Source of the DNA: Diaphorobacter limosus
GTDB lineage: Bacteria > Pseudomonadota > Gammaproteobacteria > Burkholderiales > Burkholderiaceae_C
Length of the DNA stretch: 64,000 nt
NCBI RefSeq assembly: GCF_033100095.1
Contig: NZ_CP136921.1
Coordinates: 2,884,501-2,948,500 of the forward strand
Direction of reading: 5' to 3'
The position numbers and the translations under genes were made by a program. The notes below the pieces were generated by a model. It worked only from the letters and a program-made list of their open reading frames with translations, searched no databases and had not been told where the DNA came from. This document shows, one piece after another, positions 30,120 to 63,849 of this stretch. Every line of letters starts with the position of its first letter. Position 1 is the first letter of the stretch.

Positions 30120-31195
30120 TCAGCCGGCGCTCGGCGACGCGGCACCGGCCCGGTACTCGTTGGGGGTGCGGCCTGTCCAGCGCTTGAAGGCATGGCGAAA
30201 GCTCGCGGCGTCGCTGAAACCCAGGGCGGCGGCGATGTCGTCGACCTCGAGGAACGAGGTCGACAGGTAGTCGACAGCCAAGGCCTGGCGCACGCTCGCC
30301 AGCAGTTCCAGATAGGTCGTCCCCTCTTCGTTGAGCCGTCGCCGCAGCGTCCGGGCGTTGATGCACAGCCCCGCCGCGATCTCGTCGATGCTGGGAAAGC
30401 GGCCGGGTGTTCGCGTCAGTTCAGCATACACGCGGCGGCTCATGCCCGAGCTCCACTTGTGGTCCTCCAACAGCTTGGCGCAGGCTGCCGAAACCTGGGT
30501 CGCGGCGATAGGGTTCGCGAATTGGGGTGTCCGGTCCAGCCACTCGGCTGGGTAGTCCACTTGCGTGCGAGGCTGATCGAAGGCGACGGTGCATTCGAGC
30601 ACCCGCTCCAACAGGCCAGCGTATCTCGGACGCGGCAACGCGAAGTTCGCGCGCGCAGGCATGCACCAGGCGCCCATCACGTGCTTGGTCAGACTGACGT
30701 GCGTGCCGAGCTGCATCTCCAGCAGCGCGCGAAACAGATCGGTATCGACGTCGGGCAGCGCGGCTTCGTCGAGCGTCGGTAGAACCCATGAGGCCACGTC
30801 GTGCTCCACCTCGAAGGCAATCCGCATGACCGGTGTGGCAAGTCCGTGATAGCGCACGGCGAGTTCGCAGGCACCGCGCATCGACTCGGCGCACGCCAAC
30901 GCATAGCCGTACATGCCGTAGTCGGTGAGGCGCATTCCGCCCCCCACGAGTGCGGCCCATCCCGCCTCTGGCGACAGCCTGCCGGCGTTGCGGCACACCA
31001 CGATGAACTGGTGGGAACCGAGATCCGAGTCTGGGCATTCGAGGCTTCGGCCGGCGACAGGCCGGAGCCGGCCAGCAGCAGCTTGATGTCCACCCCCAGT
31101 TCACTCAGGGCGCGCATGACGGCGTGCACCTTGAACGGTGCGTACCGCTTTTCGTGCAGCGCAAGCGCCGCGTTCGTTCTCGGTTTTGTACTCAT
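30120..31195 (-). pseudogene. AraC-family regulator of operon A, frameshifted in its N-terminal part
   Basis: Start ATG 31195 (MSTKPRTNAALALHEKRYA) has AGGAGA seven bases upstream. The protein should be about 358 residues: an arabinose-binding-like effector domain (LTDYGMYGYALACAESMRG) and a C-terminal AraC helix-turn-helix (IDEIAAGLCINARTLRRRL; FLEVDDIAAALGFSDAASFR). At about 31013-31016 the sequence reads GGTGGGAACCGAG where the second copy reads GGTGGACCGAG. These two extra bases break the frame after about residue 60. The rest stays open in the shifted frame to the stop at 30120. Divergent from fadD by 194 bases, it is the expected controller of operon A. Confidence 0.85.
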
Positions 31196-32693
31196 GGATT
31201 TCTCCTGGAATCGTGTTGTTGCCTTCTGCATTCTCCACACGGAGACCCTCGGGAAACTCCCTAGCTACTGTCCTCAGCGATGCGCATCTTGTCCTCGCCC
31301 GTCATTTACGCCGAAGCGGCCAGACCCGACATTACTGACCCAGCAAGCAGCCTCACAGAACGCGGTATCAACACAAGCAGGAGACAAGCATGGGCACTCG
31401 CCACTGGACCCAGTCGTACGCCGACATCCCCGCAGAGATCGACGCCGATCGCTATGCGTCAATGGTCGATCTGTTGGACGCCGCGCTCGAGCGCCACGCC
31501 TCGCGTCCGGCGTTCAAGGCGTTCGGCCAGACCTTGAACTACGCCGACGTCGACCGGCTGTCGCGGTCATTCGCGTCCTATCTGCAGAACAAACTGGGCG
31601 TACGCCAGGGCGACCGCGTGGCGGTGATGATGCCGAACCTGCTGGCGTTCCCGGTCACGCTGCTCGGCATCATGCGCGCCGGCGCGGTGCAGGTGAACGT
31701 GAATCCGCTGTACACGCCGCGCGAACTCGAGCACCAGCTCAACGATGCCGGCGTCGAGACGATCGTCGTCTTCAGCGGCTCGACGCCGACGCTGGCAGAG
31801 GTGCGCGCCAATACCGGCCTGAAGACGGTCATCACGGTCGCTGTCGGCGACGCCAGCGGCGCCACGCTGCCGAGCCCGCCGGTCGATGCACTGCTCGGCG
31901 AGTCGGTCTCCTTTGCCGAGGCGCTGGCCCAGGGCGGCGGGCTGCCGCTGCAGCCGGTAGCGCTGACCGGCGACGACCTGCTGTTCCTGCAATACACCGG
32001 CGGCACCACCGGGCTGTCCAAGGGCGCCGCGCTGTCGCACCGCAACCTCGTCGCCAACACCGAGCAGTTCAAGGCCTTCATGCCGGTGGCGGTGAAAGAG
32101 GGCGAGGAAGTGTTGGTGACTGCCATCCCGCTGTACCACATCTTCGCGCTGATGGTGTCGCTGAGCTATCTGTCGGTGGGCGCCGAGAACTGGCTCGTCG
32201 CCAACCCGCGCGACATGGACGGCTTCGTCGGCGTGTTGGCGCAGGCCAGGCCGACGGTTTTCATGGGCGTCAACACGCTGTACGGCGGGCTGGTGCAGCA
32301 CCCCAAGCTTGGCGAAGTGGACTGGTCGCGCCTGAAGATCGCGATCGGCGGTGGCGCTGCCGTGGTCGGGGCGGTGTCCGACCGCTGGAAGGCCATCACC
32401 GGCCACTTCATCCGCGAGGGCTACGGCCTGTCGGAAACCTCGCCGGTGGTGTCGTTCAACCCGGCCTACATCACCGAGTTCACCGGCACGACCGGCCTGC
32501 CGATGCCGTCGACCGACGTCAAGCTGCTCGACGACAAGGACCTCGAAGTGGGGCTGGGGCAGCCGGGAGAGATCTGCGTCAAGGGGCCGCAGGTGATGCG
32601 CGGCTACTGGGAGAAGCCCGACGCGAACGCCACTGCGTTCACAAGCGACGGCTACTTCCGAACGGGCGACATCGGCGTCTTCGACGACAAGGG
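30142..32693. repeat. Large direct repeat, copy 1 (2.55 kb)
   Basis: Nearly identical to 51165-53716 at a constant offset of 21023 bases. It covers the AraC-type gene, the divergent promoter and the first four fifths of the acyl-CoA synthetase gene. Differences seen by eye are two 2-base indels in the regulator, a C/T at 31341/52364 and a G/A near 32552/53575. Beyond the left edge the copies are unrelated; beyond the right edge they drop to ordinary homology. Confidence 0.9.
31196..31389. promoter_or_regulatory. Divergent promoter region araC / fadD, copy 1
   Basis: A 194-bp gap between divergent starts. Shine-Dalgarno sites are visible at both ends (AGGAGA before each ATG). The same gap is kept in copy 2 with one base change. 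No unambiguous -35/-10 pair or AraC half-site could be fixed by eye. Confidence 0.55.
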
Positions 32694-33021
32694 CTACCTG
32701 AAGATCGTCGACCGCAAGAAGGACATGATCATCGTCTCCGGCTTCAACGTCTACCCGAACGAGGTCGAGGCCGTGGTGGCCAATTGCCCCGGCGTGGCCG
32801 AGGCGGCGTGCATCAGCGTGCCGCATGCGAAAACCGGCGAGGCGGTCAAGCTGTTCGTCGTCCGCCTGCCGGGCGCCGGCGTGACGGAGGCCGAGGTGAT
32901 CGCGCATTGCCGCGCCGGCATGACCGGCTACAAGGTGCCGAGCGTCGTGCGTTTCGTCGACGCGCTGCCGAAATCCAATGTCGGCAAGATTCTCCGGCGC
33001 GAGCTGCGCAACGTTGATTGA
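31390..33021 (+). CDS. Long/medium-chain acyl-CoA synthetase, operon A
   Basis: AMP-forming ligase that activates fatty acids to acyl-CoA in the cytoplasm. The 543-residue protein has the ATP/AMP motif YTGGTTGLSKGAALSH (residues 202-217), the acyl-specific motif REGYGLSETSP (Y345), the hinge DRKKDMIIVSGFNVYPNE (from D441) and the catalytic lysine K533 in SNVGKILRREL. It is the first gene of operon A and 10 bases before phaZ. The first 434 residues are almost identical to the paralogue at 52413; the last 109 differ strongly, an abrupt change at the repeat edge. Confidence 0.92.
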   Translation: MGTRHWTQSYADIPAEIDADRYASMVDLLDAALERHASRPAFKAFGQTLNYADVDRLSRSFASYLQNKLGVRQGDRVAVMMPNLLAFPVTLLGIMRAGAVQVNVNPLYTPRELEHQLNDAGVETIVVFSGSTPTLAEVRANTGLKTVITVAVGDASGATLPSPPVDALLGESVSFAEALAQGGGLPLQPVALTGDDLLFLQYTGGTTGLSKGAALSHRNLVANTEQFKAFMPVAVKEGEEVLVTAIPLYHIFALMVSLSYLSVGAENWLVANPRDMDGFVGVLAQARPTVFMGVNTLYGGLVQHPKLGEVDWSRLKIAIGGGAAVVGAVSDRWKAITGHFIREGYGLSETSPVVSFNPAYITEFTGTTGLPMPSTDVKLLDDKDLEVGLGQPGEICVKGPQVMRGYWEKPDANATAFTSDGYFRTGDIGVFDDKGYLKIVDRKKDMIIVSGFNVYPNEVEAVVANCPGVAEAACISVPHAKTGEAVKLFVVRLPGAGVTEAEVIAHCRAGMTGYKVPSVVRFVDALPKSNVGKILRRELRNVD

Positions 33022-33030
33022 GGCGGGCGT

Positions 33031-33939
33031 ATGACCAGCGATGCCATGGGCGCCGTCCCGGCGCCGGGTACCGGCTCTCCCGAATCGCCGGCGGGCCGCA
33101 ACGGAGCCGCCGCCCGCACCGCTGAGGCCGGCGGACATCCGCTCGAGATCCAGATGCTGCAGGTGGGCGGCCAACTGCTGCGCGTCGGCCGCCAGGCGGG
33201 TTCGCAGCGCGGCGCAACGCCGTTGCTGATGTTCAACGGCATCGGCGGCAGCATCGAGCTGCTCGAGCCGCTCGCACGCGCGATGCCCGCGCGCGAGGTC
33301 ATCGTGTTCGATGTCCCGGGCGTCGGCCATTCGCCGATGCCGCGCCGGCCCTACCGGCTGCGCACCCTGGCGCGCTGGGCGCTCGGCGTGCTCGATCACT
33401 TCGGGCATGCGCAGGCGGACGTGCTCGGTGTCTCATGGGGCGGCGTGGCGGCGCAGGAATTCGCACGCACGGCGGGCGAGCGCTGCCGGCGGCTGATTCT
33501 GTGCGCCACCACATCGGGTATGTTCATGCTGCCGGGGCATCCGAAGGCAATCGCGCGCATGGTCACGCCGCGGCGCTACATGAGCAAGGCCTACGCAACC
33601 CAGGTCAGCGGCGACATCTACGGCGGCGACTTTCGCCGCCAGCCCGAGCTGGCGGCCGAGTTCATGAAGCACGTCAAGTGGCAGTCGCGCTGGGGCTACT
33701 ACCTGCAGATCGGCGCCGCGACGGGTTGGACCAGCGTGCATTGGTTGTGCCGCCTGAAGCAGCGCACGCTGGTGATGGCCGGCCGTGACGACCCGCTGAT
33801 CCACACCTTCAATGCCCGGCTGATGCGATCACTCATTCCGAACAGCGAACTCAAGCTGTTCGACTGCGGCCACCTCTTCCTGATGACACGCCAAGAGGAG
33901 TCGGTACGTGCCATCAACGAATTCCTCGACAAAGCCTGA
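33031..33939 (+). CDS. Medium-chain-length PHA depolymerase (PhaZ-like alpha/beta hydrolase), operon A
   Basis: Alpha/beta hydrolase of 302 residues resembling intracellular PhaZ of Pseudomonas: LLMFNGIGGSIELLEPLARA, FDVPGVGHSPMPRRPYRL, GVSWGGVAAQEFA (nucleophile S135), YGGDFRRQPELA, and DCGHLFLMTRQEE (H281). The acid is probably D253 or D254 in GRDDPLI. PhaZ releases hydroxy acids from stored PHA granules. No signal peptide, consistent with an intracellular enzyme. The first 40 residues are Ala/Gly/Pro-rich and poorly conserved with the second copy at 54050. It lies between acyl-CoA synthetase and phaJ/phaC, so a PHA role is favoured over a general esterase. Confidence 0.85.
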   Translation: MTSDAMGAVPAPGTGSPESPAGRNGAAARTAEAGGHPLEIQMLQVGGQLLRVGRQAGSQRGATPLLMFNGIGGSIELLEPLARAMPAREVIVFDVPGVGHSPMPRRPYRLRTLARWALGVLDHFGHAQADVLGVSWGGVAAQEFARTAGERCRRLILCATTSGMFMLPGHPKAIARMVTPRRYMSKAYATQVSGDIYGGDFRRQPELAAEFMKHVKWQSRWGYYLQIGAATGWTSVHWLCRLKQRTLVMAGRDDPLIHTFNARLMRSLIPNSELKLFDCGHLFLMTRQEESVRAINEFLDKA

Positions 33940-33966: not shown

Positions 33967-34431
33967 ATGAGCACTGCACCCATGGGCCCCGCCGAACTGG
34001 CGGACATGACCGGTCAGGAGATCGGCGTTTCATCGTGGATCGAAGTCGGCCAGCGGCGCATCGACGAGTTCGCGCACTGCACCGAAGACCGTCAATGGAT
34101 TCACGTCGATGTCGAACGCGCGGCCAGGGAGAGCCCGGCCGGCGGCACGATCGCGCACGGCTACCTGACCCTCGCGCTGCTGGCGCCCACCGGGATGGAA
34201 ATCCTGGTGCCGCGCGTGCGCGCCAAGCAGATCCTCAACTACGGTTTCGACAAGGTGCGCTTCCTCGCCCCGGTGCTGGCCGGAAAGAGGGTGCGCAACC
34301 GCATCAAGCTCGCGGCTGCCGAGGACAAGGGCGGCGGCCGCTGGCTGCTCTCGCTCGAGAACACGGTCGAGATCGAGGGCAGCGACAAGCCGGCGCTGGT
34401 GGCCACCACGCTCGCGATGGTGTTCGGCTGA
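33967..34431 (+). CDS. MaoC/NodN-type dehydratase, PhaJ-like (R)-enoyl-CoA hydratase, operon A
   Basis: A 154-residue single hotdog-fold protein. It has the MaoC/R-hydratase signature: DRQWIHVDVERA followed by GGTIAHGYLTLALL, giving the Asp/His pair used to hydrate trans-2-enoyl-CoA to (R)-3-hydroxyacyl-CoA. That product is the substrate of PHA synthase, encoded 21 bases downstream, so the gene probably links beta-oxidation to polymer synthesis. NodN-like proteins share the fold, so substrate is inferred from context. AGGAGA lies six bases before the start. Confidence 0.82.
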   Translation: MSTAPMGPAELADMTGQEIGVSSWIEVGQRRIDEFAHCTEDRQWIHVDVERAARESPAGGTIAHGYLTLALLAPTGMEILVPRVRAKQILNYGFDKVRFLAPVLAGKRVRNRIKLAAAEDKGGGRWLLSLENTVEIEGSDKPALVATTLAMVFG

Positions 34432-34452: not shown

Positions 34453-36411
34453 ATGGCCACCAAGACCACCTCCGCGGGCAGCGCCCGCACCACCGCCGCG
34501 ACAGGCGCCAAGCGTACCGCCGGCAAGACGGCTGCCGCCACCACCCCGGCCGTCCGCACCACCGCCGCGGCGGGCGCCAAGCGTGTGGTCGGCAAGTCCG
34601 ACGCCGCCACTACCGCCACCGCTGCCACTCGCGTCGCGAAGAAGGCGCGCAGCGCGGCGGATACCGCCGCGAAGCTGTCCGGCAGCGCGAGCAAGGCCGG
34701 CCTGTCTGCGCTCGGCACGGCCAGCGATCTTGGTGGCCTCGTCGCCGAGGCCAGCCGCAACACGCTCGCGATTAACCCGCTGATCGGCTTGAATAAGCGC
34801 GACGTGGCAAGCGCCGCCGGCTCGCTGCTCAAGGCCGTCGCCAGCACGCCGCGGCGCGCCAGCACGCACCTGGGCCGCTACGTGAAGGAACTGGGCCAGG
34901 TCGCGAAAGGGAAGTCCGAGCTCGTGCCCGACCCCAAGGACCGGCGCTTCGCCGATCCGGCGTGGAAGAGCAACGCCCTGTACGCGCGCCTGATGCAGTC
35001 GTACCTGGCGACGCAGAAGGAGCTGTCGCACTTCATCGACCAGTCCGCATTGAACAAGCTCGAGAAGGGTCGCGCGCACTTCTTCGCCTCGCTGATCACC
35101 GACGCGCTCGCCCCGAGCAACTGGCTGTTCGGCAACCCTGCGGCGGTGCGCAAGATCGTCGACACCGGGGGCGACAACCTCGTCAAAGGGCTGAAGAACC
35201 TGATCCACGACGCGCGCCACAACCACATGCTGCCTTCAATGGTCGACGCCACGCCGTTCAAGGTCGGCGAGACCATCGCCACCTCGCCCGGCCAGGTGGT
35301 GCTGCGCCACGAGATGTTCGAGCTGCTGCAGTTCGCTCCGACGACGCCGCAGGTGCACGCCCGCCCACTCGTGATGTCGCCGCCGCAGGTCAACAAGTAC
35401 TACGCCATCGACCTGACGCCGGACAAGAGCCTCGTCAAGTGGGCGACCGACTCGGGCGTGCAGCTGTTCGTCGTCAGCTGGCGCAACCCGACGGTCGAGC
35501 ACCGGCACTGGGGCCTGGACGACTACGTGCGTGCCCTCGATGCGGCGGTCGATGCGACGTGCAAGATCACTGGTAGCACCGACGTCAACATGTGGGGCAG
35601 TTGCTCGGGCGGCATGACGCTGGCTGCCTATCTGGCGTGGCTGGCTGCCACCGGCAAGCCCAAGGTCGCCAACACGACCTGGGCCGTGTGCGTGCTCGAC
35701 ACCGAAGCGGCGATCGAGGATTCGACGCTCGGCCTGTTCAACTCGCCAGCGACGATCCGTGCCGCCAAGGCGCGCTCGCGGCGCAAGGGCTTCGTCGATG
35801 GCGCGGAGATGGCCTCGATGTTCGCCTGGCTGCGTCCGAACGACCTGATCTGGAACTACTGGGTCAACAACTACCTGCTCGGCAACCGCCCGCCGGCCTA
35901 CGACGTGCTGGCCTGGAACGCCGACACCACCCGGCTGCCCGGCCAGTACCACTGCGACCTGCTCGAGCTGGTCGAGAAGAACCCGTACGTCAACGCCGGC
36001 ACGCTCGAAGTGCTCGGCGTGCCGGTCGACATGGGCCAAGTCAAGCTTGGCGCGTACGTGATCGCCGGCATCACCGACCACATCACGCCCTGGCGCGCGT
36101 GTTACGGCACGGCGCGGCTGTTCGGGCCCGAGACGACGTTCGTGCTGGCCAACGCGGGCCACCTGCAAAGCATGATCAACCCGCCGGGCGTGCCCAAGGC
36201 CTTCTTCTTCAGCGGCCCGGCCGCTACGGACGACCCGATGGCCTGGGCCGAGGGCGCCCAGCCGAGCAAGCAGGAAGGCAGCTGGTGGCCGCACTGGCGC
36301 GAGTGGATCAAGGGCAAGTCCGGCGAGCTGAAGCCCGCGCCCGCGAAGCTCGGATCGCGCAAGTACCGGCCCCTGGCGCCAGCACCTGGAACCTACGTGA
36401 TGGAGCGCTGA
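34453..36411 (+). CDS. Poly(3-hydroxyalkanoate) synthase with basic N-terminal tail, operon A
   Basis: Polymerises (R)-3-hydroxyacyl-CoA on the granule surface. The 652-residue protein has the PhaC alpha/beta fold with the triad C384 in MWGSCSGGMTL, D542 in GITDHITPW and H570 in NAGHLQSMI; LVMSPPQVNKYYAIDLTPDKS is also typical. The first 100 residues are an Ala/Lys/Thr/Arg-rich tail (TTAATGAKRTAGKTAAATTP) resembling histone H1-like or PhaM-type tails, absent from standard PhaC. The conserved region starts near SRNTLAINPLIGLNKRD. The upstream neighbours are phaZ and phaJ. The second copy at 55469 has a shorter tail. Confidence 0.92.
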   Translation: MATKTTSAGSARTTAATGAKRTAGKTAAATTPAVRTTAAAGAKRVVGKSDAATTATAATRVAKKARSAADTAAKLSGSASKAGLSALGTASDLGGLVAEASRNTLAINPLIGLNKRDVASAAGSLLKAVASTPRRASTHLGRYVKELGQVAKGKSELVPDPKDRRFADPAWKSNALYARLMQSYLATQKELSHFIDQSALNKLEKGRAHFFASLITDALAPSNWLFGNPAAVRKIVDTGGDNLVKGLKNLIHDARHNHMLPSMVDATPFKVGETIATSPGQVVLRHEMFELLQFAPTTPQVHARPLVMSPPQVNKYYAIDLTPDKSLVKWATDSGVQLFVVSWRNPTVEHRHWGLDDYVRALDAAVDATCKITGSTDVNMWGSCSGGMTLAAYLAWLAATGKPKVANTTWAVCVLDTEAAIEDSTLGLFNSPATIRAAKARSRRKGFVDGAEMASMFAWLRPNDLIWNYWVNNYLLGNRPPAYDVLAWNADTTRLPGQYHCDLLELVEKNPYVNAGTLEVLGVPVDMGQVKLGAYVIAGITDHITPWRACYGTARLFGPETTFVLANAGHLQSMINPPGVPKAFFFSGPAATDDPMAWAEGAQPSKQEGSWWPHWREWIKGKSGELKPAPAKLGSRKYRPLAPAPGTYVMER

Positions 36412-36470
36412 AGCCAGCGCACCCGGCCCACGCACGCGACACGTACACAACACGCAAGGAGACACCCATC

Positions 36471-37484
36471 ATGAGCACCTACACCGCCCCGATGAAGGAC
36501 ATGCAGTTCGTGCTGCACGAACTGGCGGGCCTCGACGCGATTGCCCGGCTGCCCGGCTACGGCGACGTGAGCACCGAACTCGTCGATGCGGTGCTCGAAG
36601 GCGCCGCCACCTTCTCCAGCGAGGTCTGGGGGCCGCTGAACAAGGTCGGAGACCTGCAGGGTCTGAAGCGCCACGACGACGGCCGCGTCACCACGCCCAA
36701 GGGCTTCGTCGAGGCCTATGCCAAGTTCGTCGAGTCGGGCTGGAACGGCCTGCGCTTCGACCCCGCCTTCGGCGGCCAGGGGCTGCCCAAGCTGGTCGAC
36801 ACCGCGGTGATGGAGATGTGGAGCGGCGGCGGCTCGGCGGTGAACAAGTGGCTGGCGATGACGGGCACCTTCATCCGCGAAGGCTACGGCCTGTCGGAGA
36901 CCAGCCCCATCCTGACCTTCAACCCGGCCTCGGTGCAGCAGTTCAGCGGCACCACCGGCCTGCCGCTGCCGTCCACCGACATCAAGCTGCTCGACGACGA
37001 CGGCAACGAAGTCGGCCTCGGCGAATCCGGCGAGATCGTCGCCAAAGGCCCGCAGGTGATGAGCGGCTACTGGGAGAAGCCGGAAGCCAACGCCACCGCC
37101 TTCACTCCCGACGGCTACTTCCGCACCGGCGACATCGGCGTGTTCACGCCCGAAGGCTTCCTGAAGATCGTCGACCGCAAGAAGGACATGATCATCGTGT
37201 CGGGCTTCAACGTGTTCCCGAACGAAATCGAAGCCGTGGCCACCGCTTGCCCCGGCGTCATGGAATGCGCCTGCATCGGCGTGCCGGACGAGAAGACCGG
37301 CGAGGCGGTCAAGCTGTTCATCGTCAAGGCGCAGGGTGCAACGCTCAGCGAAGCCGAGGTGGTGGCGTTCTGCCGCAAGGAGCTGACCGGCTACAAGGTG
37401 CCCAAGCTCGTGCGCTTCGTCGACGCGCTGCCCAAGTCCACCGTCGGCAAGATCCTGCGGCGCGAACTGCGCGACGTGAAATGA
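36471..37484 (+). pseudogene. Chimera of acyl-CoA dehydrogenase N-terminus and acyl-CoA synthetase C-terminus
   Basis: The 337-codon frame is open. Residues 1 to about 117 match the start of the acyl-CoA dehydrogenase at 57397 ([38 protein letters not shown]). From about 36822 the frame becomes the end of a FadD-type ligase (GGGSAVNKWLAMTGTFIREG, YGLSETSP, DRKKDMIIVSGFNV, STVGKILRRELRDVK). The FAD-binding and catalytic parts of the dehydrogenase and the ATP-binding half of the ligase are missing, so neither activity is expected. This ligase tail differs from those of both intact copies, so it comes from a third gene. The frame is preserved, and an AAGGAGA precedes the ATG. Confidence 0.85.
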
Positions 37485-44226: not shown

Positions 44227-44248
44227 TACGGATAGGCGTTTTAACCGC
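44227..44248 (-). other. Candidate oriIS of the IS91/ISCR-like element
   Basis: On the minus strand the sequence reads GCGGTTAAAACGCCTATCCG, then TA, then GAAC of the flank. From memory, ISCR oriIS sequences look like GCGTTTGAACTTCCTATACGG. About 14 of 21 positions agree, including the terminal CCTATnCG. Its position downstream of the transposase 3' end is the correct side for oriIS. Confidence 0.6.
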
Positions 44249-44425
44249 ATGAGGCCAAGTATCGCACCGCGGAAGCGCCATCAAGCCGGCTGAGACACTC
44301 GATTTTCCCGCCCAGGTGTCAGGTTCACCACCAGGCTTTGGCGTTCAGGAGAGTGATTTGCGGCGCTCGGCGTGTACCGGGCGCAGAGCCAGTTCGCGGC
44401 AAGTCAAAATCGCCGCTTTGTTCAT

Positions 44426-45985: not shown

Positions 45986-45986
45986 G

Positions 45987-46010: not shown

Positions 46011-46040
46011 CTGCGGCGATTGTTTGGGTACGCAAAGCAC

Positions 46041-46070: not shown

Positions 46071-46093
46071 GGCAGGGTAGCTTGGCTGCGGAC

Positions 46094-54044: not shown

Positions 54045-54049
54045 CGGAC

Positions 54050-54943: not shown

Positions 54944-54985
54944 GGCCCGCCCGGTCTCGGCATATCGAAAAAAGGAGACATGGAG

Positions 54986-55450
54986 ATGAGTACACAACGC
55001 ATGAGCGCGGCCGACCTGACCGCCAAGGTGGGGCAGGAGATCGGCGTTTCTTCCTGGCTGGCAGTCGATCAAACGCGCATCAACGAATTCGCGCACTGCA
55101 CCGAAGACCACCAATGGATCCATGTCGACATCGAGCGCGCCCGAAAGGAAAGCCCGGCCCGCTCCACGATCGCTCATGGCTACCTCACGCTGTCGCTGCT
55201 GGCACCAACGAGTTTCGAGATCCTGTCGCCGATCGTCGAAGCGAAGCAGCTCATGAACTACGGCCTCGACAAGGTGCGATTCCTGACGCCGGTCGTGGCT
55301 GGAAAACGGGTTCGCAACCACATCAAGCTGCTCGCCGTGGAAAGCAAGGGCAGCGAGCGCTGGCTGCTGACGCTCGAGAACTCGGTTGAGATCGAGGGTG
55401 TGGACAAGCCCGCGCTGGTTGCCGCTTCACTCGTCATGCTCGTCAACTGA
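54986..55450 (+). CDS. MaoC/NodN-type dehydratase, PhaJ-like, operon B
   Basis: A 154-residue hotdog protein, same length as the copy at 33967. It has the hydratase signature DHQWIHVDIERA and STIAHGYLTLSLL. Start 54986 (MSTQRMSAADLTAKVG) is chosen because AAAGGAGA is then about eight bases upstream; the ATG six bases earlier would sit on the ribosome site. Predicted to supply (R)-3-hydroxyacyl-CoA to the PHA synthase 18 bases downstream. Confidence 0.82.
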   Translation: MSTQRMSAADLTAKVGQEIGVSSWLAVDQTRINEFAHCTEDHQWIHVDIERARKESPARSTIAHGYLTLSLLAPTSFEILSPIVEAKQLMNYGLDKVRFLTPVVAGKRVRNHIKLLAVESKGSERWLLTLENSVEIEGVDKPALVAASLVMLVN

Positions 55451-55468: not shown

Positions 55469-57343
55469 ATGGCAACCCGCAAGTCCCCGCGCTCCCAGGA
55501 TGGCGCTGCGCCCACCTCTACACGACCACCGGCTCGAAAGACCGCACTCCCTGAAGATCGTCCGGCTCGAACCACGCCGACGGCACGAAGCAAGAAAGCC
55601 ACTACCGCGATGCCGGAGGCGTCGGCGGCCGACAGCAAGGCGATGGTGCCGACGGCCGAAACGGCCGAGCTGGTCGCCACGGCCAGCCGCAACACCCTGG
55701 CGATCAATCCCTTGATCGGGCTGAACCAACGGGACATCGCCACATCCGCCAGTGCGCTGCTCAAGGCCGTTGTGGAGAGCCCTCACAAGGCGACGACGCA
55801 CTATGCCAGCTTCCTGAAGGAACTGTCCCAGATCGTCCTGGGCAAATCGGAGCTGGCACCCGATCCGAAGGACCGGCGATTTGCCGACGCTGCCTGGAAG
55901 GACAACGCGCTGTACGCGCGGCTGCTGCAGTCCTATCTGGCCACCCAGAAGGAGCTGACACAGTTCATCGATGGATCAGAGCTCACGGGGATCGAGAAGG
56001 GGCGTGCGCGCTTCTTCGCTTCACTCGTCACCGACGCGCTGGCGCCTAGCAATTGGCTGTTCGGCAATCCAGTGGCCGTGCGCAAGATCATCGACACCGG
56101 GGGCGCCAACCTGGTCAAGGGCCTGAAGAACATGGCCCACGATATGCGGCACAACCACATGATGCCCTCGATGGTCGACACCACGCCTTTCAAGGTCGGT
56201 GAAAACATTGCTACCTCTGCCGGTCAAGTGGTCTGCCGGCACGAGATGTTCGAGCTGCTGCAGTTCACGCCGACCACTCCCCAGGTGCATGCACGGCCCC
56301 TGGTGATGTCGCCGCCGCAGGTCAACAAGTACTACGCCATCGACCTGACGCCCGACAAGAGCCTGGTGAAATGGGCGACCGACTCGGGCATCCAGCTGTT
56401 CATCGTGAGCTGGCGCAACCCCACTGTGGAGCATCGCGACTGGGGTCTGGAGGACTATGTGCGGGCGCTGGACCATGCCGTGGACGTTGCGCGCGAAATC
56501 ACGGGAAGCCCGGACGTCAACATGTGGGGCTCCTGTTCGGGTGGCATGTGCCTGGCGGCCTATCTCGGCTGGCTTGCCGCCAAGGGCGACCGCAAGGTGG
56601 TCAACACCAGTTGGGCCGTGTGCGTGCTCGACACCCAGGCGGCCGTGGAGGATTCGACGCTCGGTCTCTTCAATTCACCAGCGACGATCCGCGCCGCCAA
56701 GGCGCGCTCGAGCCGCAAGGGCTTCGTCAGCGGCGAGGAGATGGCGTCAATGTTCGCCTGGCTGCGCCCGAACGACCTGATCTGGAATTACTGGGTCAAC
56801 AACTACCTGCTGGGCAACAGTCCCCCGGCCTACGACGTGCTGGCCTGGAACGCCGACACCACCCGCCTGCCGGGCCGCTACCACTGCGACCTGCTCGACA
56901 TGTTTGCGCTGAACCCCTATGTGAACGCGGGCACCCTCGAGATCGAGGGGCTGCCGATCGACATGGGGCAGGTCGATCTGGGCGCCTATGTGATCGCCGG
57001 CATCACCGACCACATCACGCCCTGGCGCGCGTGCTACGGAACGGCGCGCATGTTCGGCCCCGACACCACATTCGTTCTGGCCAACGCAGGTCATCTGCAA
57101 AGCCTGATCAACCCGCCGGGCGCGCCAAAGTCCTTTTTCTTCGCGGCGCCGGCCACCTTCGAAGACCCCGGGGCATGGGCCGATGCGGCCCAGTCCGCAC
57201 GCCAGGAAGGCAGCTGGTGGCCGCACTGGCGCGCGTGGATCCAGGGCCGCTCGGGTGAGCTGATCCCGGCACCGGCCCAGCTCGGCTCGCGCCAGCACAA
57301 GCCCCTGGGACCTGCGCCCGGCACCTACGTGCTGGAGCGCTGA
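55469..57343 (+). CDS. Poly(3-hydroxyalkanoate) synthase, operon B
   Basis: A 624-residue PHA synthase with C356 in MWGSCSGGMCL and the Asp and His motifs GITDHITPW and NAGHLQSLI. The core from SRNTLAINPLIGLNQRD onward is highly similar to the copy at 34453, but the first 70 residues are a different, shorter basic tail (Arg/Lys/Pro/Thr-rich, RKSPRSQDGAAPTSTRPPAR). Two divergent synthases in one locus could form mixed granules or differ in chain-length preference. Confidence 0.92.
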   Translation: MATRKSPRSQDGAAPTSTRPPARKTALPEDRPARTTPTARSKKATTAMPEASAADSKAMVPTAETAELVATASRNTLAINPLIGLNQRDIATSASALLKAVVESPHKATTHYASFLKELSQIVLGKSELAPDPKDRRFADAAWKDNALYARLLQSYLATQKELTQFIDGSELTGIEKGRARFFASLVTDALAPSNWLFGNPVAVRKIIDTGGANLVKGLKNMAHDMRHNHMMPSMVDTTPFKVGENIATSAGQVVCRHEMFELLQFTPTTPQVHARPLVMSPPQVNKYYAIDLTPDKSLVKWATDSGIQLFIVSWRNPTVEHRDWGLEDYVRALDHAVDVAREITGSPDVNMWGSCSGGMCLAAYLGWLAAKGDRKVVNTSWAVCVLDTQAAVEDSTLGLFNSPATIRAAKARSSRKGFVSGEEMASMFAWLRPNDLIWNYWVNNYLLGNSPPAYDVLAWNADTTRLPGRYHCDLLDMFALNPYVNAGTLEIEGLPIDMGQVDLGAYVIAGITDHITPWRACYGTARMFGPDTTFVLANAGHLQSLINPPGAPKSFFFAAPATFEDPGAWADAAQSARQEGSWWPHWRAWIQGRSGELIPAPAQLGSRQHKPLGPAPGTYVLER

Positions 57344-57396: not shown

Positions 57397-59193
57397 ATGA
57401 CCAACTATTCCGCCCCGATCCGGGACATGAAATTCGCGATGCAGGAGCTCGCAGGCATGGAGGAGGTGATACGCCTGCCGGGCTATGAAGAAGTATCGAA
57501 TGAGCTGGTGGATCAGGTGCTGGAAGGCGCGGGCACCTTCGCCGCCGAAGTCTGGGGCCCGTTGAACGTTCCGGGCGACACCGAGGGCCTGAAGTGGCAC
57601 GAAGATGGCAGTGTCACGACCCCGAAGGGCTTCATCGAGGCCTATGGCAAGTTCGTCGAGTCGGGATGGAACGGTCTGCGCTTCGACCCTGAGTACGGCG
57701 GGCAGGGTCTGCCCAAGCTGGTCGACACCGCGGTGATGGAGATGTGGAACGCGTCGAACATGGCGTTCTCGATGGCGCCGCTGCTGACCCAGGGGGCGAT
57801 CGAAGCGGTGTTCCTGCGCGGCAGCGACGAGCAGAAGCAGCGCTTCCTGCACAAGATGGTCTCGGGCGAATGGACTGGCACGATGAACCTGACCGAGCCG
57901 CAGGCCGGCTCGGACCTGGGGCTGATCCGCACCAAGGCCGTGCCCGAAGGCGAGCACTTCCGCATCCATGGGCAGAAGATCTTCATCAGCTTTGGCGAAC
58001 ACGACCTGACCGAGAACATCGTGCACCTGGTGCTGGCGCGCACGCCCACCGCACCCGAGGGGGTGCGGGGCATCTCGCTGTTTGTGGTGCCGAAGTTCCT
58101 GGTCAACGACGACGGCAGCCTGGGTGCGCGCAACGATGTGCGCTGCGTGTCGATCGAGCACAAGATGGGCATCCACGCGAGCCCGACGGCGGTGCTCGCC
58201 TTCGGCGACGGGCCGGGCGCGATCGGCTACCTCATCGGCGAGGAGAACCGCGGTCTCGAATATATGTTCATCATGATGAACGAGGCGCGCTTCGGCGTCG
58301 GCGTGCAGGGGCTGGGCGTGGCCGAGCGCGCCTACCAGCAGGCCCTGGCCAACGCCAAGGAGCGCGTGCAAGGCAAGGACGCCACCGCGCCCAAGGGCCC
58401 GAGCGTGCCGATCATCCGGCATCCGGACGTGCGGCGCATGCTGATGAGCATGAAGTCGCGCGTCGAGGCGATGCGCGCGCTGGCCTACGTGGTCGCGGCG
58501 ATGTTCGACCAAGCCCATCGTGCGGGCGACGAGGCGGCGCGCAGTGCGGCGCACGCCGGCGTCGACCTGCTGATCCCGATCCTCAAGGGCTGGTGCACCG
58601 AGACCGGCATCGAGGTGGCCTCCACCGGCATCCAGGTGCACGGCGGCATGGGTTTCATCGAGGAGACCGGTGCCGCGCAGCACCTGCGCGACGCGCGCAT
58701 CACCACGATCTACGAGGGCACGACCGGCATCCAGGCCAACGACCTGATCGGGCGCAAGGTGCTGCGCGACGGCGGGCGCTCGATGCAGGCGCTGCTGGCG
58801 CAGATCGACGGCGTGTGCGCGCAGCTCGAGGCCGGCGACGACGCACAGCTACACGCGATCGGCGCGCGCCTGCGCGAGGGCTCGAAGAGCCTCGCCGACA
58901 GCATGCGCTGGATCCTCGCCACCGGTGGGCAGGATCTCAACGCGGTGTTGGCCGGCGCGGTGCCGTTCCTGCACCTTTGCGGCGTGGTGTGCGGCGGCTG
59001 GCAGATGGCCCGTGCCGCGCTGGCGGCGCAGCGCAAGCTCGCAGCCGACTCCGGCGATGCGGACTTCTACCGCGCCAAGATCGCGACCGCGCGCTTCTTC
59101 GCCGACCAGGATCTGTCTCGCGCACGCGGGCTCGCCGAAGCGACCATGCACGCCGGCGCCAGCACGATGGCGCTCGGCGAAGACCAGTTCTGA
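57397..59193 (+). CDS. Acyl-CoA dehydrogenase (with C-terminal extension), operon B
   Basis: A 598-residue flavoenzyme that makes trans-2-enoyl-CoA. It has the acyl-CoA dehydrogenase fold: [37 protein letters not shown] (FAD and substrate contacts), [19 protein letters not shown] and [20 protein letters not shown], followed by an about 130-residue C-terminal domain found in the longer branch of the family. It is the first full-length relative of the fragment at 36471. Stop is 14 bases before etfB, so it probably donates electrons to the ETF encoded next. Confidence 0.92.
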
Positions 59194-59207: not shown

Positions 59208-59957
59208 ATGAAGATCCTCGTCGCCGTGAAGCGGGTGGTGGACTACAACGTCAAGGTGCGCGTCAAGGCCGATGGCACCGGCGTGGACATCGCCAACGTC
59301 AAGATGAGCATGAACCCCTTCGACGAGATCGCCGTCGAGGAGGCGGTGCGGTTGAAGGAGAAAGGCGTGGCGAGCGAGATCGTCGCCGTCTCGTGTGGCG
59401 TGGCGCAATGCCAGGAGACGCTGCGCACCGCGATGGCGATCGGCGCCGACCGCGGCATCCTGGTCGAGACCGGCGAAGAACTGCAGCCGTTGGCGGTGGC
59501 CAAGCTGTTGAAGGCACTGGTGGAGCAGGAGAAGCCCGCGCTGGTGATTCTCGGCAAGCAGGCGATCGACGACGACTGCAACCAGACCGGCCAGATGCTC
59601 GCCGCGCTGCTGGGTCGGCCGCAGGGGACCTTCGCGAGCAAGGTCGAGGTCGAGGACGGTCGTGTGCGCGTCACGCGCGAAGTCGACGGCGGGCTGGAAA
59701 CAGTGAGCCTCGCCACGCCGGCGGTCGTGACCACCGACCTGCGCCTGAACGAACCGCGCTACGTCACCCTGCCCAACATCATGAAGGCGAAGAAGAAACC
59801 GCTGGCCGTACTCAAGCCCGCCGACCTCGGCGTCGATGTGGCACCTCGCCTGGAGACGCTGTCGGTGCGCGAACCGTCGGGGCGCAAGGCCGGCGTCAAG
59901 GTCGCCGACGTCGCGGCTCTGGTCGACAAGCTGAAGAATGAAGCGAAGGTGGTCTGA
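59208..59957 (+). CDS. etfB: Electron transfer flavoprotein beta subunit
   Basis: A 249-residue ETF beta subunit, starting [20 protein letters not shown] and containing [19 protein letters not shown], the AMP-binding region ([19 protein letters not shown]) and the recognition loop signature [22 protein letters not shown] near residues 180-200. With EtfA it carries electrons from acyl-CoA dehydrogenase to ETF-quinone oxidoreductase. Here etfB and etfA are separated by the quinone oxidoreductase gene, an uncommon order, all on one strand. Confidence 0.95.
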
Positions 59958-59973: not shown

Positions 59974-61656
59974 ATGGACATGATGAACACGCAGGAACTC
60001 ATCGCCACCCACGGCCCGCGCGAGGCCATGGACTACGACGTCGTCGTGGTCGGCGCCGGGCCGGCCGGGCTCGCCACCGCGATCCGGTTGAAGCAGCTTG
60101 CGCCGGACGCGAGCGTCGTTGTGCTCGAAAAGGGCTCGGAGCCCGGCGCGCACATCCTCTCGGGCGCCGTGATGGACCCGCGCGCGATGGACGAGCTGTT
60201 CCCGGACTGGAAGAATCGGGGTGCCCCGCTGGACCAGGCGGTCACCGGCGACGACGTGCTGTTCCTCAGCGAAACCGGCAGCACGCGCACCCCCGACTGG
60301 CTGGTGCCGCGCAATCTGCACAACGACGGTTGCTACGTCGTCAGCCTGTCGAACGTCGTCAAGTGGATGGCACAGCAGGCTGAAGCTCTCGGCGTCGAAA
60401 TCTTCCCGGGCTTTGCCGCGGCCGAGGTGCTCTTCGACGTGCAGGGATGCGTCGCGGGCGTGGCGACCGGCAACATGGGCATCACGAAGGAAGGCGAGCC
60501 CGGCGAGAACTTCCAGCTCGGCATGGAACTGCGCGGCAAGTACACGGTCTTCGCCGAGGGCGCGCGCGGCCACCTGGGCAAGCAGTTGCTCGCCAGGTAC
60601 AAGCTGACAGAAGGACGCGACACCCAGACCTTCGCGATCGGCATCAAGGAGCTGTGGGAGGTGCCCGCCGAGAAGGCGCAGCCGGGCCGCGTGGTGCACA
60701 CCGCCGGCTGGCCGATGGCGGGCGACACCTTCGGCGGCGGCTTTCTCTACCACCTGGCGGACAACCAGGTCACGCTCGGTTTCGTGATCGGTCTCGACTA
60801 TGCCAACCCGTACCTGAGCCCGTTCGAGGAGATGCAGCGCTGGAAGACGCACCCGGCGATCCGCGCGCACATCGAAGGCGGCAAGCGCATCGGCTACGGC
60901 GCGCGGGCGATCAACAACGGCACGCCGCAGGCGCTGCCGAAGACGGTGTTCCCGGGCGGCGCGCTGATCGGCTGCGACGCCGGCTACCTGAACGCAGCGC
61001 GCATCAAGGGCAGCCACGCGGCGATCAAGTCCGGCATGCTCTGCGCCGAAGCGATGGCGCCAGCGCTCGCCGCGGGCCGCGCCCAGGATGAGCTCACTGC
61101 CTACCCCGAGGCGTTCGAGAAGAGCTGGCTCAACGCGGAGTTGCTGCAGACGCGCAACTTCAAGCTCTGGTTCAAGAAGGGCAAGACGGTGGGTCAGGTG
61201 ATGACCGGCGTCGAGCAGTGGCTGCTGCCCAAGCTCGGCGTGACCAGCCCGCCCTGGACGCTGCACAACCACAAGGCCGATCACGAGGCATTGCAGCCGG
61301 CCAGCGGCTTCCAGCCCATCGCGTACCCGAAGCCCGATGGCCGGCTGAGCTTCGACCGCCTGTCGTCGGTTTTCGTCAGCAACACCAACCACGAAGAGAA
61401 CCAGCCGGCGCACCTGACTTTGAAGGATGCCACGGTTCCGGTGCGGATCAACCTCTCGCAGTTCGGCGGGCCCGAGAGCCGCTACTGCCCCGCGGGCGTG
61501 TACGAATTCGTGCAGAACGCCGACGGCGGCGACCGGCTGCAGATCAACGCGCAGAACTGCGTGCACTGCAAGACCTGCGACATCAAGGACCCGACGCAGA
61601 ACATCGTCTGGGTGACGCCCGAAGGCGGCGGCGGACCGAACTACGCCGGCATGTGA
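59974..61656 (+). CDS. Electron transfer flavoprotein-ubiquinone oxidoreductase
   Basis: A 560-residue membrane-associated enzyme that passes electrons from reduced ETF to the quinone pool. It has the FAD motif YDVVVVGAGPAGLATAIRLK, the membrane/quinone-binding region (GDTFGGGFLYHLADNQVTLG) and a C-terminal 4Fe-4S site with CVHCKTCDIKDPTQNI (C529, C532, C535) and the earlier cysteine in RYCPAGVYEF. ATG 59974 has GACAGGA upstream; two ATGs follow within nine bases. Its place between etfB and etfA ties this operon directly to respiration. Confidence 0.93.
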   Translation: MDMMNTQELIATHGPREAMDYDVVVVGAGPAGLATAIRLKQLAPDASVVVLEKGSEPGAHILSGAVMDPRAMDELFPDWKNRGAPLDQAVTGDDVLFLSETGSTRTPDWLVPRNLHNDGCYVVSLSNVVKWMAQQAEALGVEIFPGFAAAEVLFDVQGCVAGVATGNMGITKEGEPGENFQLGMELRGKYTVFAEGARGHLGKQLLARYKLTEGRDTQTFAIGIKELWEVPAEKAQPGRVVHTAGWPMAGDTFGGGFLYHLADNQVTLGFVIGLDYANPYLSPFEEMQRWKTHPAIRAHIEGGKRIGYGARAINNGTPQALPKTVFPGGALIGCDAGYLNAARIKGSHAAIKSGMLCAEAMAPALAAGRAQDELTAYPEAFEKSWLNAELLQTRNFKLWFKKGKTVGQVMTGVEQWLLPKLGVTSPPWTLHNHKADHEALQPASGFQPIAYPKPDGRLSFDRLSSVFVSNTNHEENQPAHLTLKDATVPVRINLSQFGGPESRYCPAGVYEFVQNADGGDRLQINAQNCVHCKTCDIKDPTQNIVWVTPEGGGGPNYAGM

Positions 61657-61699: not shown

Positions 61700-62638
61700 A
61701 TGGCCGTCCTCGTCATCGCGGAACACGACAACCGGTCGCTGAAGGTGGCCACGCTCAATGCCGTCACGGCCGCCGCCGCGTTCGGCGTTTCGGTGGATGT
61801 GCTGGTGGCGGGGCACCAAGCCGCCGCGGTCGCCCAGGCCGCCGCCGCCGTGCCAGGCGTCGCGCGCGTTGTGCATGCCGATGCGGCGGCACTGGAGGGA
61901 CAGCTGGCCGAGAACATCGCCGCCCAGGTGCTCGCCGTGGCCGGCGAGTACGAGACCATCGTCTTTCCGGCAACGGCCCATGGCAAGAACGTGGCGCCGC
62001 GCGTGGCAGCCGGGCTCGACGTGGCCCAGATCAGCGACGTGACCCGAGTCGTGTCGCTGAACACCTTCGAGCGGCCGATCTACGCCGGAAATGCCATCGC
62101 CACCGTGCGCAGCAAGGACCGCATCAAGGTTCTCACGGTACGCACCACGGCCTTCGACGCCGCGCCCGTGGATGGAGGCGATGCACGTCTGGTGCTCACG
62201 CCGGCGGTGCAGGACGCGGGCACCTCGCTCTTCGTCGGCGCCGAGATCGCCAAGCTCGACCGCCCGGAACTCACGGCGGCCAAGATCATCGTCAGCGGCG
62301 GACGCGGCCTCGGTTCGGCGGAGAAGTTCGGCGAAGTGCTGACGCCTCTGGCCGACGCGTTGGGCGCCGCGCTCGGCGCGAGCCGGGCCGCGGTCGATGC
62401 AGGCTATGCGCCCAACGACTGGCAGGTCGGGCAGACGGGCAAGATCGTCGCGCCGCAGCTGTACGTGGCCTGCGGCATCTCCGGTGCCATCCAGCACCTG
62501 GCAGGCATGAAGGACTCGAAGGTGATCGTCGCGATCAACAAGGATCCCGAGGCACCGATCTTCAGCGTCGCCGACTACGGGCTCGAGGCCGACCTGTTTG
62601 CTGCGGTGCCCGAACTGACCGCCGCACTGCGCACCTGA
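61700..62638 (+). CDS. etfA: Electron transfer flavoprotein alpha subunit
   Basis: A 312-residue ETF alpha subunit. The N-terminal domain begins [20 protein letters not shown] and the C-terminal FAD domain has [40 protein letters not shown] and [20 protein letters not shown], all family signatures. AGGAG lies upstream of ATG 61700. Forms the heterodimer with EtfB. It is the last clearly metabolic gene of operon B. Confidence 0.95.
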
Positions 62639-62653
62639 GGGAGGGACCACGAC

Positions 62654-63289
62654 GTGCCACGCAAGACCGTCGCTCCCCCGCGAAGCCGGCAGCGCGCCGC
62701 CAGCGCGAAGACCGCCACGCCCGACCTGCCGCTGTTCGCACTGGCGCGCCAGGTGCGTTCGTGGGCCGACACGCTGCTGAGCGTGACCGGCAGCGCCGCG
62801 GACATCGGTCTCAGTCTCGCGCAGGCGCGCGTCAAGGACCCCAAGCGAAAGCAGGCGGTCGCCAAAGCCGGCACCCAGTTGCGGCGCTGGCGCGAGGCGG
62901 CCGGCTTGACGGCGCGCGAACTGAGCGAGGCGGTCGGACTGGGCGATGCCAAGCTGCTCGAGGAGGCCGAAGGCGGTGTGGCAACCCTGCCGTTCGAGAT
63001 CGTGCTGCGCCTGGCCGGCGTGCTGGGTCGCAACGATCCGATCCCGGTGGCGATGTCGCTCACGCGCCAATACAACCCGGAGCTGTGGAAGACCTTGGAG
63101 TCGCTGGGCGTCGGCAAGCTGGCGGTGCAGGGCGCGCGCGAGCGCGAGCTCGCCAACATCTACCGCGGCAACGATGCCGCGCGCAAGCCCGACGACGAGG
63201 ACTTCGCGGAGGTGCTGTCGTTCACGCGCCGGGCGTTCGAGATGGCGGTCGGCTTCCGCGGTGCGGCTGGCAACAGGCGGCCTCGATGA
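62654..63289 (+). CDS. HTH (XRE-like) domain protein
   Basis: A 211-residue cytoplasmic protein with GTG start 62654 (GGGAGGG eight bases upstream). The N-terminus is short and basic. The middle has a helix-turn-helix like those of the XRE family (QLRRWREAAGLTARELSEAVGLGDAKLLEEAE). The rest is helical without recognised features. It overlaps the phasin-like gene by four bases (ATGA), so the two are coupled, and it may be a transcription factor for this PHA/ETF operon. This role is inferred from position only. Confidence 0.7.
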   Translation: MPRKTVAPPRSRQRAASAKTATPDLPLFALARQVRSWADTLLSVTGSAADIGLSLAQARVKDPKRKQAVAKAGTQLRRWREAAGLTARELSEAVGLGDAKLLEEAEGGVATLPFEIVLRLAGVLGRNDPIPVAMSLTRQYNPELWKTLESLGVGKLAVQGARERELANIYRGNDAARKPDDEDFAEVLSFTRRAFEMAVGFRGAAGNRRPR

Positions 63290-63849
63290 GTCGCGGCAAG
63301 GCCTCCATCGGCACGCCCGATCGCGAGAAGGCGGGCACGCCAAAGCCGGCAAAGGCACGCGCTTCGACGCCGGCCCAGCAGCGCCGCACCGCTGCGAAGG
63401 CTCCACCCGCCAGCAAGCGCAGCCCGCAAAGGACGGTGGCGAGCGCAGCCGAGCCCCAGGCCGGACCTGCCACGCTCAAGCAAGTGGCCGCGGCCCTGGC
63501 CCGGTCGCGACGCGAGGACGCGCACGCGCTGATCGAAGCGGGCCGCATGTCGGTCGCCGGCGTGCAGGCGCTGCTGGAGCGCCGCATCGACACGTTGCGC
63601 GAAGCCCTCTCCGAGCTGCGCGCGGTCGGCAAGCTGATGAGCCACGCAGGCGCGCGCGAGACCGTCGCGCACGTTGACGAATTGGCGCGCGGCGCGGTGG
63701 AGTTGACGCTGGCCAGCGTGCGCGAAATGATGGCCCTGGCCAGCTCGACCCAACGGGAAGCGCTCGCCGTCCTGGCTCGGCGTCTGCAAGCAGATCTTCT
63801 GGAATTCAGGCAACTGCAGTCCGCCCTGCGCCAACGGCCCCCCAATTGA
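63286..63849 (+). CDS. Phasin-like protein with basic N-terminal tail
   Basis: A 187-residue protein with a 70-residue Ala/Lys/Arg/Pro-rich N-terminus ([20 protein letters not shown]) and a long helical C-terminus (about residues 75-185; [40 protein letters not shown]). Phasins coat PHA granules as amphipathic helices, and PhaF/PhaM-type ones carry basic Ala/Lys tails that hold granules to the nucleoid; here the tail is at the opposite end. Function is inferred from composition and from the two PHA operons. Translationally coupled to the HTH gene. Confidence 0.6.

Follow-up and report, generated by a model that had tools for sequence, protein, structure and literature searches.

A probable recombination fusion of an alkyl sulfate cassette to one of two paralogous polyhydroxyalkanoate operons in Diaphorobacter limosus

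Introduction

Can a bacterium lead the carbon of an alkyl sulfate into stored polyester with genes that lie side by side? This question is raised by a stretch of 64,000 nucleotides (the window) from Diaphorobacter limosus (contig NZ_CP136921.1, positions 2,884,501 to 2,948,500), whose 4.10 Mb genome is assembled as a single contig. Two operons in the window, here called A and B, encode enzymes of polyhydroxyalkanoate (PHA) metabolism. Operon A also encodes an alkylsulfatase, an alcohol dehydrogenase of the GMC family and a fatty aldehyde dehydrogenase (ALDH). An initial annotation of the window had described this region as a locus leading from alkyl sulfate to PHA. The analysis presented here indicates that operon A is probably an alkyl sulfate cassette of the slf/Lao type that was set by recombination behind one of two paralogous fatty-acid-to-PHA operons, with the pathway proposed below. 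If this is correct, the locus would encode the conversion of a common anionic surfactant into stored polyester, and would be a natural instance of fused catabolic and storage operons.

Results

Gene content of operons A and B

Gene families were called by Pfam and NCBIfam scans of translated open reading frames (ORFs) and by direct reading of the frames. The NCBIfam scan covered ten proteins and its curated cut-off was passed by PhaZ A only; the other calls are from Pfam. All of the families named in the initial annotation are present, on the + strand and in two tight runs (Table 1). Operon A (31390-43223) encodes an acyl-CoA synthetase (ACS), PhaZ, PhaJ, PhaC, a chimeric protein, an ALDH with a LaoB-like domain, the GMC enzyme and the alkylsulfatase, in this order, with intergenic gaps of 9, 27, 21, 56, 29, 21 and 61 bp. 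The chimera and the continuation of the ALDH frame into the LaoB-like domain had been overlooked. In operon B (52413-63849), the gaps do not exceed 53 bp. Every step of the pathway has a gene, as had been claimed, when the two operons are combined; operon A alone is without a complete acyl-CoA dehydrogenase (ACAD).

A fusion scar between two gene sets

The PHA genes of the two operons are paralogous. Identical residues number 182/296 in PhaZ, 108/154 in PhaJ and 479/624 in PhaC, and dN is well below dS in each pair. PhaC A scored 688.8 bits with the class II model (TIGR01839), under the cut-off of 855.4, and lower with class I (502.9). Operon B has the content of group C or phaC2-type clusters (phaC with phaJ, phaZ, a phasin gene and an ACAD gene), and on this content it is taken to be the intact PHA paralogue, with genes of the electron transfer flavoprotein (ETF) in the same run. 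Operon A has neither a full ACAD gene nor a phasin gene.

What stands behind phaC in operon A? The ORF found there encodes 338 amino acids, of which residues 1-118 are ACAD-like and the other 220 resemble the C-terminus of an ACS. Its N-terminus aligns with the start of the operon B ACAD (84/116 identical), its C-terminal part is the C-terminal region of a third acyl-CoA synthetase, and the reading frame is intact across the junction. A contig from a metagenome-assembled genome (L005) is 98.7% identical to window positions 36844-43385, over 6,542 bp without a gap. The match begins just behind the junction; upstream of it, L005 stays synthetase rather than ACAD. Because of the chimera and this continuation in L005, the window is read as a PHA operon cut within its ACAD gene and a cassette cut within its synthetase gene. 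The fusion appears to join a synthetase-ALDH-LaoB-GMC-sulfatase cassette to the PHA operon by recombination. The cassette’s own ligase persists only as part of the chimera; ACS A takes its place. In the ALDH, LaoB, GMC and sulfatase parts, changes between L005 and the window are mostly synonymous (pN/pS of about 0.05-0.23).

The upstream end of L005 is itself unusual. Its positions 1-55 match synthetase A at 32750-32804 and then switch to an earlier part of another synthetase. This end, judged from the alignment, could have been rearranged by recombination between synthetase copies or misassembled at an assembly join.

A shared regulator-promoter-synthetase tract

The two operons begin with nearly the same DNA. 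Positions 30142-32738 and 51165-53760 differ by three mismatches and two 2-bp indels (99.9% identical), and past 32738 the identity between A and B drops to about 77%. The tract holds the gene of an AraC-type regulator, a divergent region of 194 bp and about 1,350 bp of the synthetase gene. If the tract is real, its near-identical promoters would couple operons A and B. A promoter scan found 0 promoters. A terminator scan found 8 terminator-like sites against 7.6 expected, the strongest of which (43300-43327) lies after the sulfatase gene.

Enzymes of the alkyl sulfate cassette

The sulfatase has the features of the SdsA type, namely MBL, Alkyl_sulf_dimr and Alkyl_sulf_C domains and the metal motif. 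Its alignment with the solved SdsA1, PSdsA and Pisa1 spans the full length, and the THSHADH motif is conserved. At the two positions that differ between 2yhe and 4av7 (S/F versus Y/G), the window sulfatase has F and G, which is nearer to SdsA1 (Y/G). The GMC enzyme is 50% identical over 519 residues to a GMC protein of Pseudomonas aeruginosa (P0121). LaoA is presumably the GMC enzyme of the Lao system, and PA0365 is taken by us to be LaoB.

No stop codon separates the ALDH from a LaoB-like domain that follows it in the same frame. The twin-arginine translocation (Tat) motif of this domain, RRSFLKVG, thus sits inside the ALDH frame (TAT_signal 15.5 bits, under the cut-off of 22.7). A homologue of the domain (31%, E 1e-16) is encoded as a separate protein next to the GMC gene of a second alkylsulfatase locus, L026. 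A search restricted to the domain returned 17 proteins of 676-680 aa that are 94-99% identical, among the 7,994 candidates with the most shared words, which were the ones scored. An error of this assembly is therefore an unlikely source of the ALDH-LaoB frame, and among these candidates the fused frame appears confined to one clade. The product may be one fused protein, or LaoB may start internally.

The proposed pathway

From this gene content we infer the substrates, the co-transcription, the regulation and a flux from alkyl sulfate to PHA. The lipoprotein alkylsulfatase would cleave a primary alkyl sulfate outside the cytoplasm, and the alcohol would be oxidized by the membrane-linked, LaoA-like GMC enzyme together with the LaoB-like partner that has the Tat motif. 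The aldehyde would then be oxidized by the ALDH and the acid activated by acyl-CoA synthetase A or B. Dehydrogenation of the acyl-CoA would fall to the operon B ACAD, with electrons passing via ETF and ETF-quinone oxidoreductase (ETF-QO) to quinone. PhaJ would convert the enoyl-CoA to (R)-3-hydroxyacyl-CoA, PhaC would store it, and PhaZ and phasin would manage the granule. Because the regulator-promoter-synthetase tract is nearly identical in the two operons, joint control is expected, and an AraC-type regulator resembling SlfR, the repressor of the slf operon, may control both together.

Recurrence of the alkyl sulfate module

The initial annotation was right about the steps from alkyl sulfate to acyl-CoA as a set: this set recurs in varied gene orders and with varied GMC subfamilies, and it matches the slf operon, as the window genes for alkylsulfatase, GMC enzyme, ALDH and acyl-CoA ligase lie in a single run and in one direction. 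L026, in the same genome, has the order ALDH-SULF-LaoB-GMC (SULF, alkylsulfatase), with identities to the first locus of 58% for ALDH, 45-46% for SULF and GMC, and 31% for LaoB. Variovorax ginsengisoli (L007) has ACS-SULF-GMC-ALDH with a GMC enzyme of another subfamily, L006 has ACS-SULF-GMC, and a Paraburkholderia plasmid has GMC-SULF. In genome G116 (L060), an AraC gene lies divergent to ALDH-GMC-ligase-SULF, where the ligase is distant. In genome G197 (L052 6285-14105), phasin-ACS-SULF-GMC-ALDH lie on one strand; the phasin that heads this module (Phasin_2, 29.8 bits; cut-off 24.9) is 36% identical to the window phasin. The set also recurs in genome G108, described below. No ALDH or GMC relative of the reference set was found in the fetched stretches of 8/10 annotated family sulfatase loci (L053-L059, L061), nor in those of L009, L010 and L012; L011 has a distant ALDH only. 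The ALDH/GMC/synthetase module is thus best described, from the loci compared, as one recurring context of this sulfatase family among others.

Does the pairing with PHA genes recur?

The join in the initial annotation’s locus is real and has a counterpart in G108, although in the window it takes the form of a recombination fusion. In G108, an AraC gene (-) is followed by ALDH-GMC-SULF-ACS-PhaJ-PhaC-PhaZ-ACAD, all on one strand. The largest gap in this nine-gene layout, 397 bp, is ahead of PhaC. The G108 sulfatase is 72% identical to that of L026 versus 46% to that of the window, and its GMC enzyme belongs to the Variovorax subfamily (67%). For these reasons G108 is not a copy of operon A, and it is the best evidence that the sulfatase-PHA pairing has meaning.

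Two further links between the modules appear weaker: the phasin of G197 and an ORF of genome G046 (L048 1675-4827). The latter has alkylsulfatase domains with 26-28% identity to the reference sulfatases, which is below the search threshold. It is encoded on the strand that carries PhaC, some 5 kb past this gene, and an ORF of the other strand intervenes; the PHA run that it follows is ACS-PhaZ-PhaJ-PhaC-ACAD.

A search of genomes for co-occurrence, as the initial annotation had suggested, was made in a family sample of 200 genomes (alkylsulfatase, E 1e-60; this PhaC type, E 1e-150). Alkylsulfatase was found in 35/200, this PhaC type in 9/200 and both in 5 genomes (hypergeometric P 0.009, only a guide because the genomes are related). 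The annotation had also held that the same cluster, if widespread without the alkylsulfatase and GMC genes, would speak against its reading. This is in part what was found: 7/9 other PhaC loci (L045, L046, L047, L049, L050, L051, L062) have no sulfatase relative within their 20-kb stretch, whereas the join in G108 counts the other way. No sulfatase was found in the annotation of two plasmid loci with a G108-like GMC gene. Order-wide, the PhaC type was found in 1/399 genomes, the window’s own (E 1e-150; at most three candidates scored per genome). L045-L048 are operon-B-like PHA clusters in relatives, and that of genome G098 (L045) has EtfB, ETF-QO and EtfA in the same run.

Mobile elements and other features of the window

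Between operons A and B lie an integrase fragment, an IS91 element (IS, insertion sequence), lpdA, rmuC, a short ORF resembling the major facilitator superfamily (MFS) and an IS630 element. In the window, L005 and L026 alike, an IS91 end lies no more than about 1 kb away from the cassette. The L026 locus (6311-15476) is flanked on one side by a 352-bp IS91 end and on the other by an IS91 copy, and this copy carries a duplicated stretch of the lpdA 3' end. Movement of the whole cassette by one-ended transposition of IS91 was considered and rejected: the bases adjoining the IS91 end differ (GAAC in L005, CAAG in L026; both are presumably IS91 targets), and separate insertions fit equally. A plasmid origin was also rejected, as 0/34 matching plasmid records cover 80% of 30000-44500. 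The GMC gene has one weak plasmid match (E 1e-60), and the plasmid relatives of the alkylsulfatase (135 records, E 1e-80) are all below 60% identity.

Two neighbouring genes complete the picture of the window. A SulP-type sulfate permease with a STAS domain is encoded at 19881-21575 (-), some 10 kb before operon A begins. A protein with NERD and UvrD-helicase domains (28029-29912) directly adjoins operon A.

Table 1. Features of the window and of the G108 locus, with positions in the respective stretch.
Feature	Position	Strand	Remark
AraC-type regulator copy A	30120..31195	-	PF12625 + HTH_18; N-terminal part out of frame, 2-bp insertion
Divergent intergenic (promoter) region A	31196..31389	.	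practically identical to operon B counterpart
Acyl-CoA synthetase A (ACS A)	31390..33021	+	Pfam AMP-binding; best NCBIfam are long-chain ligases, below cut-offs
PhaZ A, intracellular PHA depolymerase	33031..33939	+	TIGR02240 271.6 bits, cut-off 250.6
PhaJ A, MaoC-type enoyl-CoA hydratase	33967..34431	+	Pfam
PhaC A, class II-like PHA synthase	34453..36411	+	below class II cut-off
ACAD-ACS in-frame chimera	36468..37484	+	fusion scar; junction within 36822-36844
Fatty aldehyde dehydrogenase + LaoB-like domain, one frame	37514..39556	+	twin-arginine motif; LaoB-like part from ~39008
GMC alcohol dehydrogenase, LaoA-like	39578..41149	+	50% to 531-aa P. aeruginosa GMC protein
SdsA-type alkylsulfatase	41211..43223	+	lipoprotein-type signal, LFAGC, read from sequence
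Integrase fragment	43545..44252	+	runs into IS91 end
IS91-family (ISPps1-like) element	44228..46090	-	transposase 44426-46042; right-hand end approximate
lpdA, full-length	46094..47968	-	
MFS-like ORF, 189 aa	49112-49681		end overlaps end of IS630-type transposase
IS630-type transposase	49666..50709	-	beside operon B
AraC-type regulator copy B	51137..52218	-	C-terminal part out of frame, different 2-bp insertion
Acyl-CoA synthetase B	52413..54044	+	
PhaZ B	54047..54943	+	Pfam: alpha/beta hydrolase; shares 182/296 residues with PhaZ A
PhaJ B	54980..55450	+	
PhaC B	55469..57343	+	
Acyl-CoA dehydrogenase (ACAD), full length	57397..59193	+	
EtfB	59208..59957	+	
ETF-quinone oxidoreductase (ETF-QO)	59977..61656	+	
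EtfA	61700..62638	+	
Helix-turn-helix (HTH) protein	62654..63289	+	
Phasin	63286..63849	+	Phasin_2
G108 ALDH	27564-29078		
G108 GMC	29099-30763		
G108 SULF	30760-32739		
G108 ACS	32785-34425		
G108 PhaJ	34442-34921		
G108 PhaC	35319-37121		
G108 PhaZ	37131-38054		
G108 ACAD	38051-39193		

Discussion

How much meaning can be given to the join? A larger reading is that the alkyl sulfate and PHA genes form one regulon, assembled at least twice in the family from non-orthologous parts, by which detergent carbon is stored directly as polyester, and that the fusion of ALDH with LaoB holds aldehyde oxidation next to the alcohol dehydrogenase in the membrane. This reading is tentative, and we would place it somewhat short of an even chance.

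Several observations weigh against a functional union. The fusion in operon A bears a scar and may have arisen recently by accident, and the synthetase remnant differs from L005 by three synonymous changes and one other, numbers too small to separate decay from constraint. As assembled, each AraC copy is frameshifted by one 2-bp insertion, at a different site in each. The predicted model of the LaoB part is not confident (mean pLDDT 42.8). Among the 62 genomes with an alkylsulfatase in the family-level and order-level samples (74 sulfatase and 113 PhaC places), a sulfatase and a PhaC at most 20 kb apart on one contig were found in two only, the window’s and G108; this is a lower bound, as many assemblies are fragmented and the order sample was scored for at most three candidates per genome. 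By our rough arithmetic, about one such pair is expected by chance, and it is therefore mainly the tight same-strand run of G108 that counts as evidence. In Pseudomonas putida KT2440, homologues of LaoAB were dispensable for alcohol use (PMC13291428). Lastly, the class II-like PhaC2 of Cupriavidus showed a class I substrate preference (PMC4636328), which implies that monomers derived from C12 chains may not be stored here.

The strongest alternative is that the two modules are neighbours by accident: insertion sequences and recombination between synthetase paralogues would have shuffled the region, and the cassette would feed ordinary beta-oxidation with no special role for PHA. The fusion scar and the IS91 and IS630 elements agree with this, as do the IS91 ends about 1 kb or less from the cassette in L005 and L026, the odd synthetase join at the 5' end of L005, the rarity of close pairing and the PhaC loci that have no sulfatase relative nearby. 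The pairing in the window genome could then be an accident that resembles G108. Against it stand the nine-gene pairing of G108, built from different subfamilies, the phasin that heads the G197 module and the distant alkylsulfatase-family ORF near PhaC in G046. The gaps of operon A, none above 61 bp, the frame held across the scar and the enrichment of alkylsulfatase among genomes with this PhaC type (5/9 versus 35/200) also argue against chance. On balance, accident is a possibility to be taken seriously, though we hold it to be rather improbable. The window genome and G108 pair the modules differently, so function and chance as sources of the pairing can be tested against each other.

We consider it unlikely that part of the region is an assembly artefact, in which the two near-identical AraC-synthetase tracts were merged or exchanged, with the tract of identity and both frameshifts as the outcome. 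The database holds two distinct intact AraC types, 98% (P0138) and 95% (P0139) identical to the AraC ORF of copy A. The end of P0138 (176 members) resembles that of copy B, the end of P0139 (121 members) that of copy A, yet both window copies have a B-type body and a 2-bp insertion. From these ends and bodies, the sequence of B seems to have replaced that of copy A, through gene conversion or mis-assembly. Gene conversion explains the tract of identity equally well, and the gap-free match to the separately assembled L005 indicates good quality in the cassette. The two insertion sites have a similar GG/CC context.

Least probable of all is that the cassette serves alkyl ether sulfates, other sulfate esters or natural sulfolipids and that the GMC enzyme acts on a related alcohol: the substrate of SdsA homologues is given as uncertain (PMC3346939, reporting Hagelueken et al.), and chain length is not fixed by sequence families alone, yet GMC, LaoB and ALDH make up the Lao set, whose LaoAB is linked to C12-C24 alcohols (PMC13291428), and the PHA and acyl-CoA genes indicate fatty acyl chains. 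The fusion of an alkyl sulfate cassette to a fatty-acid-to-PHA operon remains the preferred reading of operon A.

Comparison with known systems

The window sulfatase shares with SdsA1, PSdsA and Pisa1 (2cfu, 4nur, 2yhe) a full-length arrangement of MBL-fold, dimerisation and C-terminal SCP2-like domains and the metal motif; it differs in its lipoprotein-type N-terminus, as read from the sequence. Sulfatase genes tend to be scattered over the genome in Pseudomonas (PMC10779009). In a transcriptome of Pseudomonas degrading sodium dodecyl sulfate (SDS), a PHA gene was up 30 min after SDS and the sulfatase genes were unchanged (PMC6107682).

LaoABC is known in Pseudomonas (PMC13291428, PMC6107682). 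LaoABCR of P. aeruginosa includes an alcohol dehydrogenase, a small partner with a Tat signal and an ALDH (PMC13291428, PMC6107682), to which the GMC enzyme, the LaoB-like domain and the ALDH of the window would correspond; PA0365 is listed with a Tat signal (PMC6085387). LaoAB has been reported as necessary for C12-C24 alcohols (PMC13291428, citing Panasia and Philipp 2018). The window differs in that one run includes sulfatase and synthetase as well, and in that LaoB and ALDH share a frame.

On the PHA side, the phaC2 cluster of Cupriavidus pinatubonensis JMP134 and the group C clusters of Burkholderia sensu lato have, as here, a single class II-like phaC with phaJ/maoC, phaZ and phasin genes, and the JMP134 cluster also has fadE (PMC4636328, PMC8231600). 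The JMP134 cluster was shown to be co-transcribed, and on octanoate the transcription of phaC2 was about 240-fold above that of phaC1 (PMC4636328). To this content operon B adds the acyl-CoA synthetase, EtfB/ETF-QO/EtfA and the divergent AraC gene, whereas in operon A the ACAD gene breaks off partway and the sulfatase cassette follows.

The cassette is akin to slfRCHSL of the Psychrobacter plasmid pP62BP1, which shares with the window an alkylsulfatase, a GMC enzyme, an ALDH and an acyl-CoA ligase in one run, as well as a divergent AraC-family regulator with PF12625 (PMC3346939, PMC10779009). Its proposed path leads from alkyl sulfate to acyl-CoA (PMC3346939, PMC10779009). Its genes form a demonstrated operon under repression by SlfR, with lauryl aldehyde as the inducer (PMC10779009). 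The initial annotation knew of no described operon that joins these functions; slf already joins sulfatase, GMC enzyme, ALDH and synthetase, and for the further step to PHA no published operon was found in the titles, abstracts and passages covered by searches of open-licence papers. Compared with published descriptions of slf, the window differs in its gene order, which is not C-H-S-L, in the PHA genes that stand in front, in the LaoB-like domain fused to ALDH and in its LaoA-like GMC enzyme. G108 has the slf order R|C-H-S-L with the PHA genes behind. Both halves are thus of kinds already described, and only the join is new.

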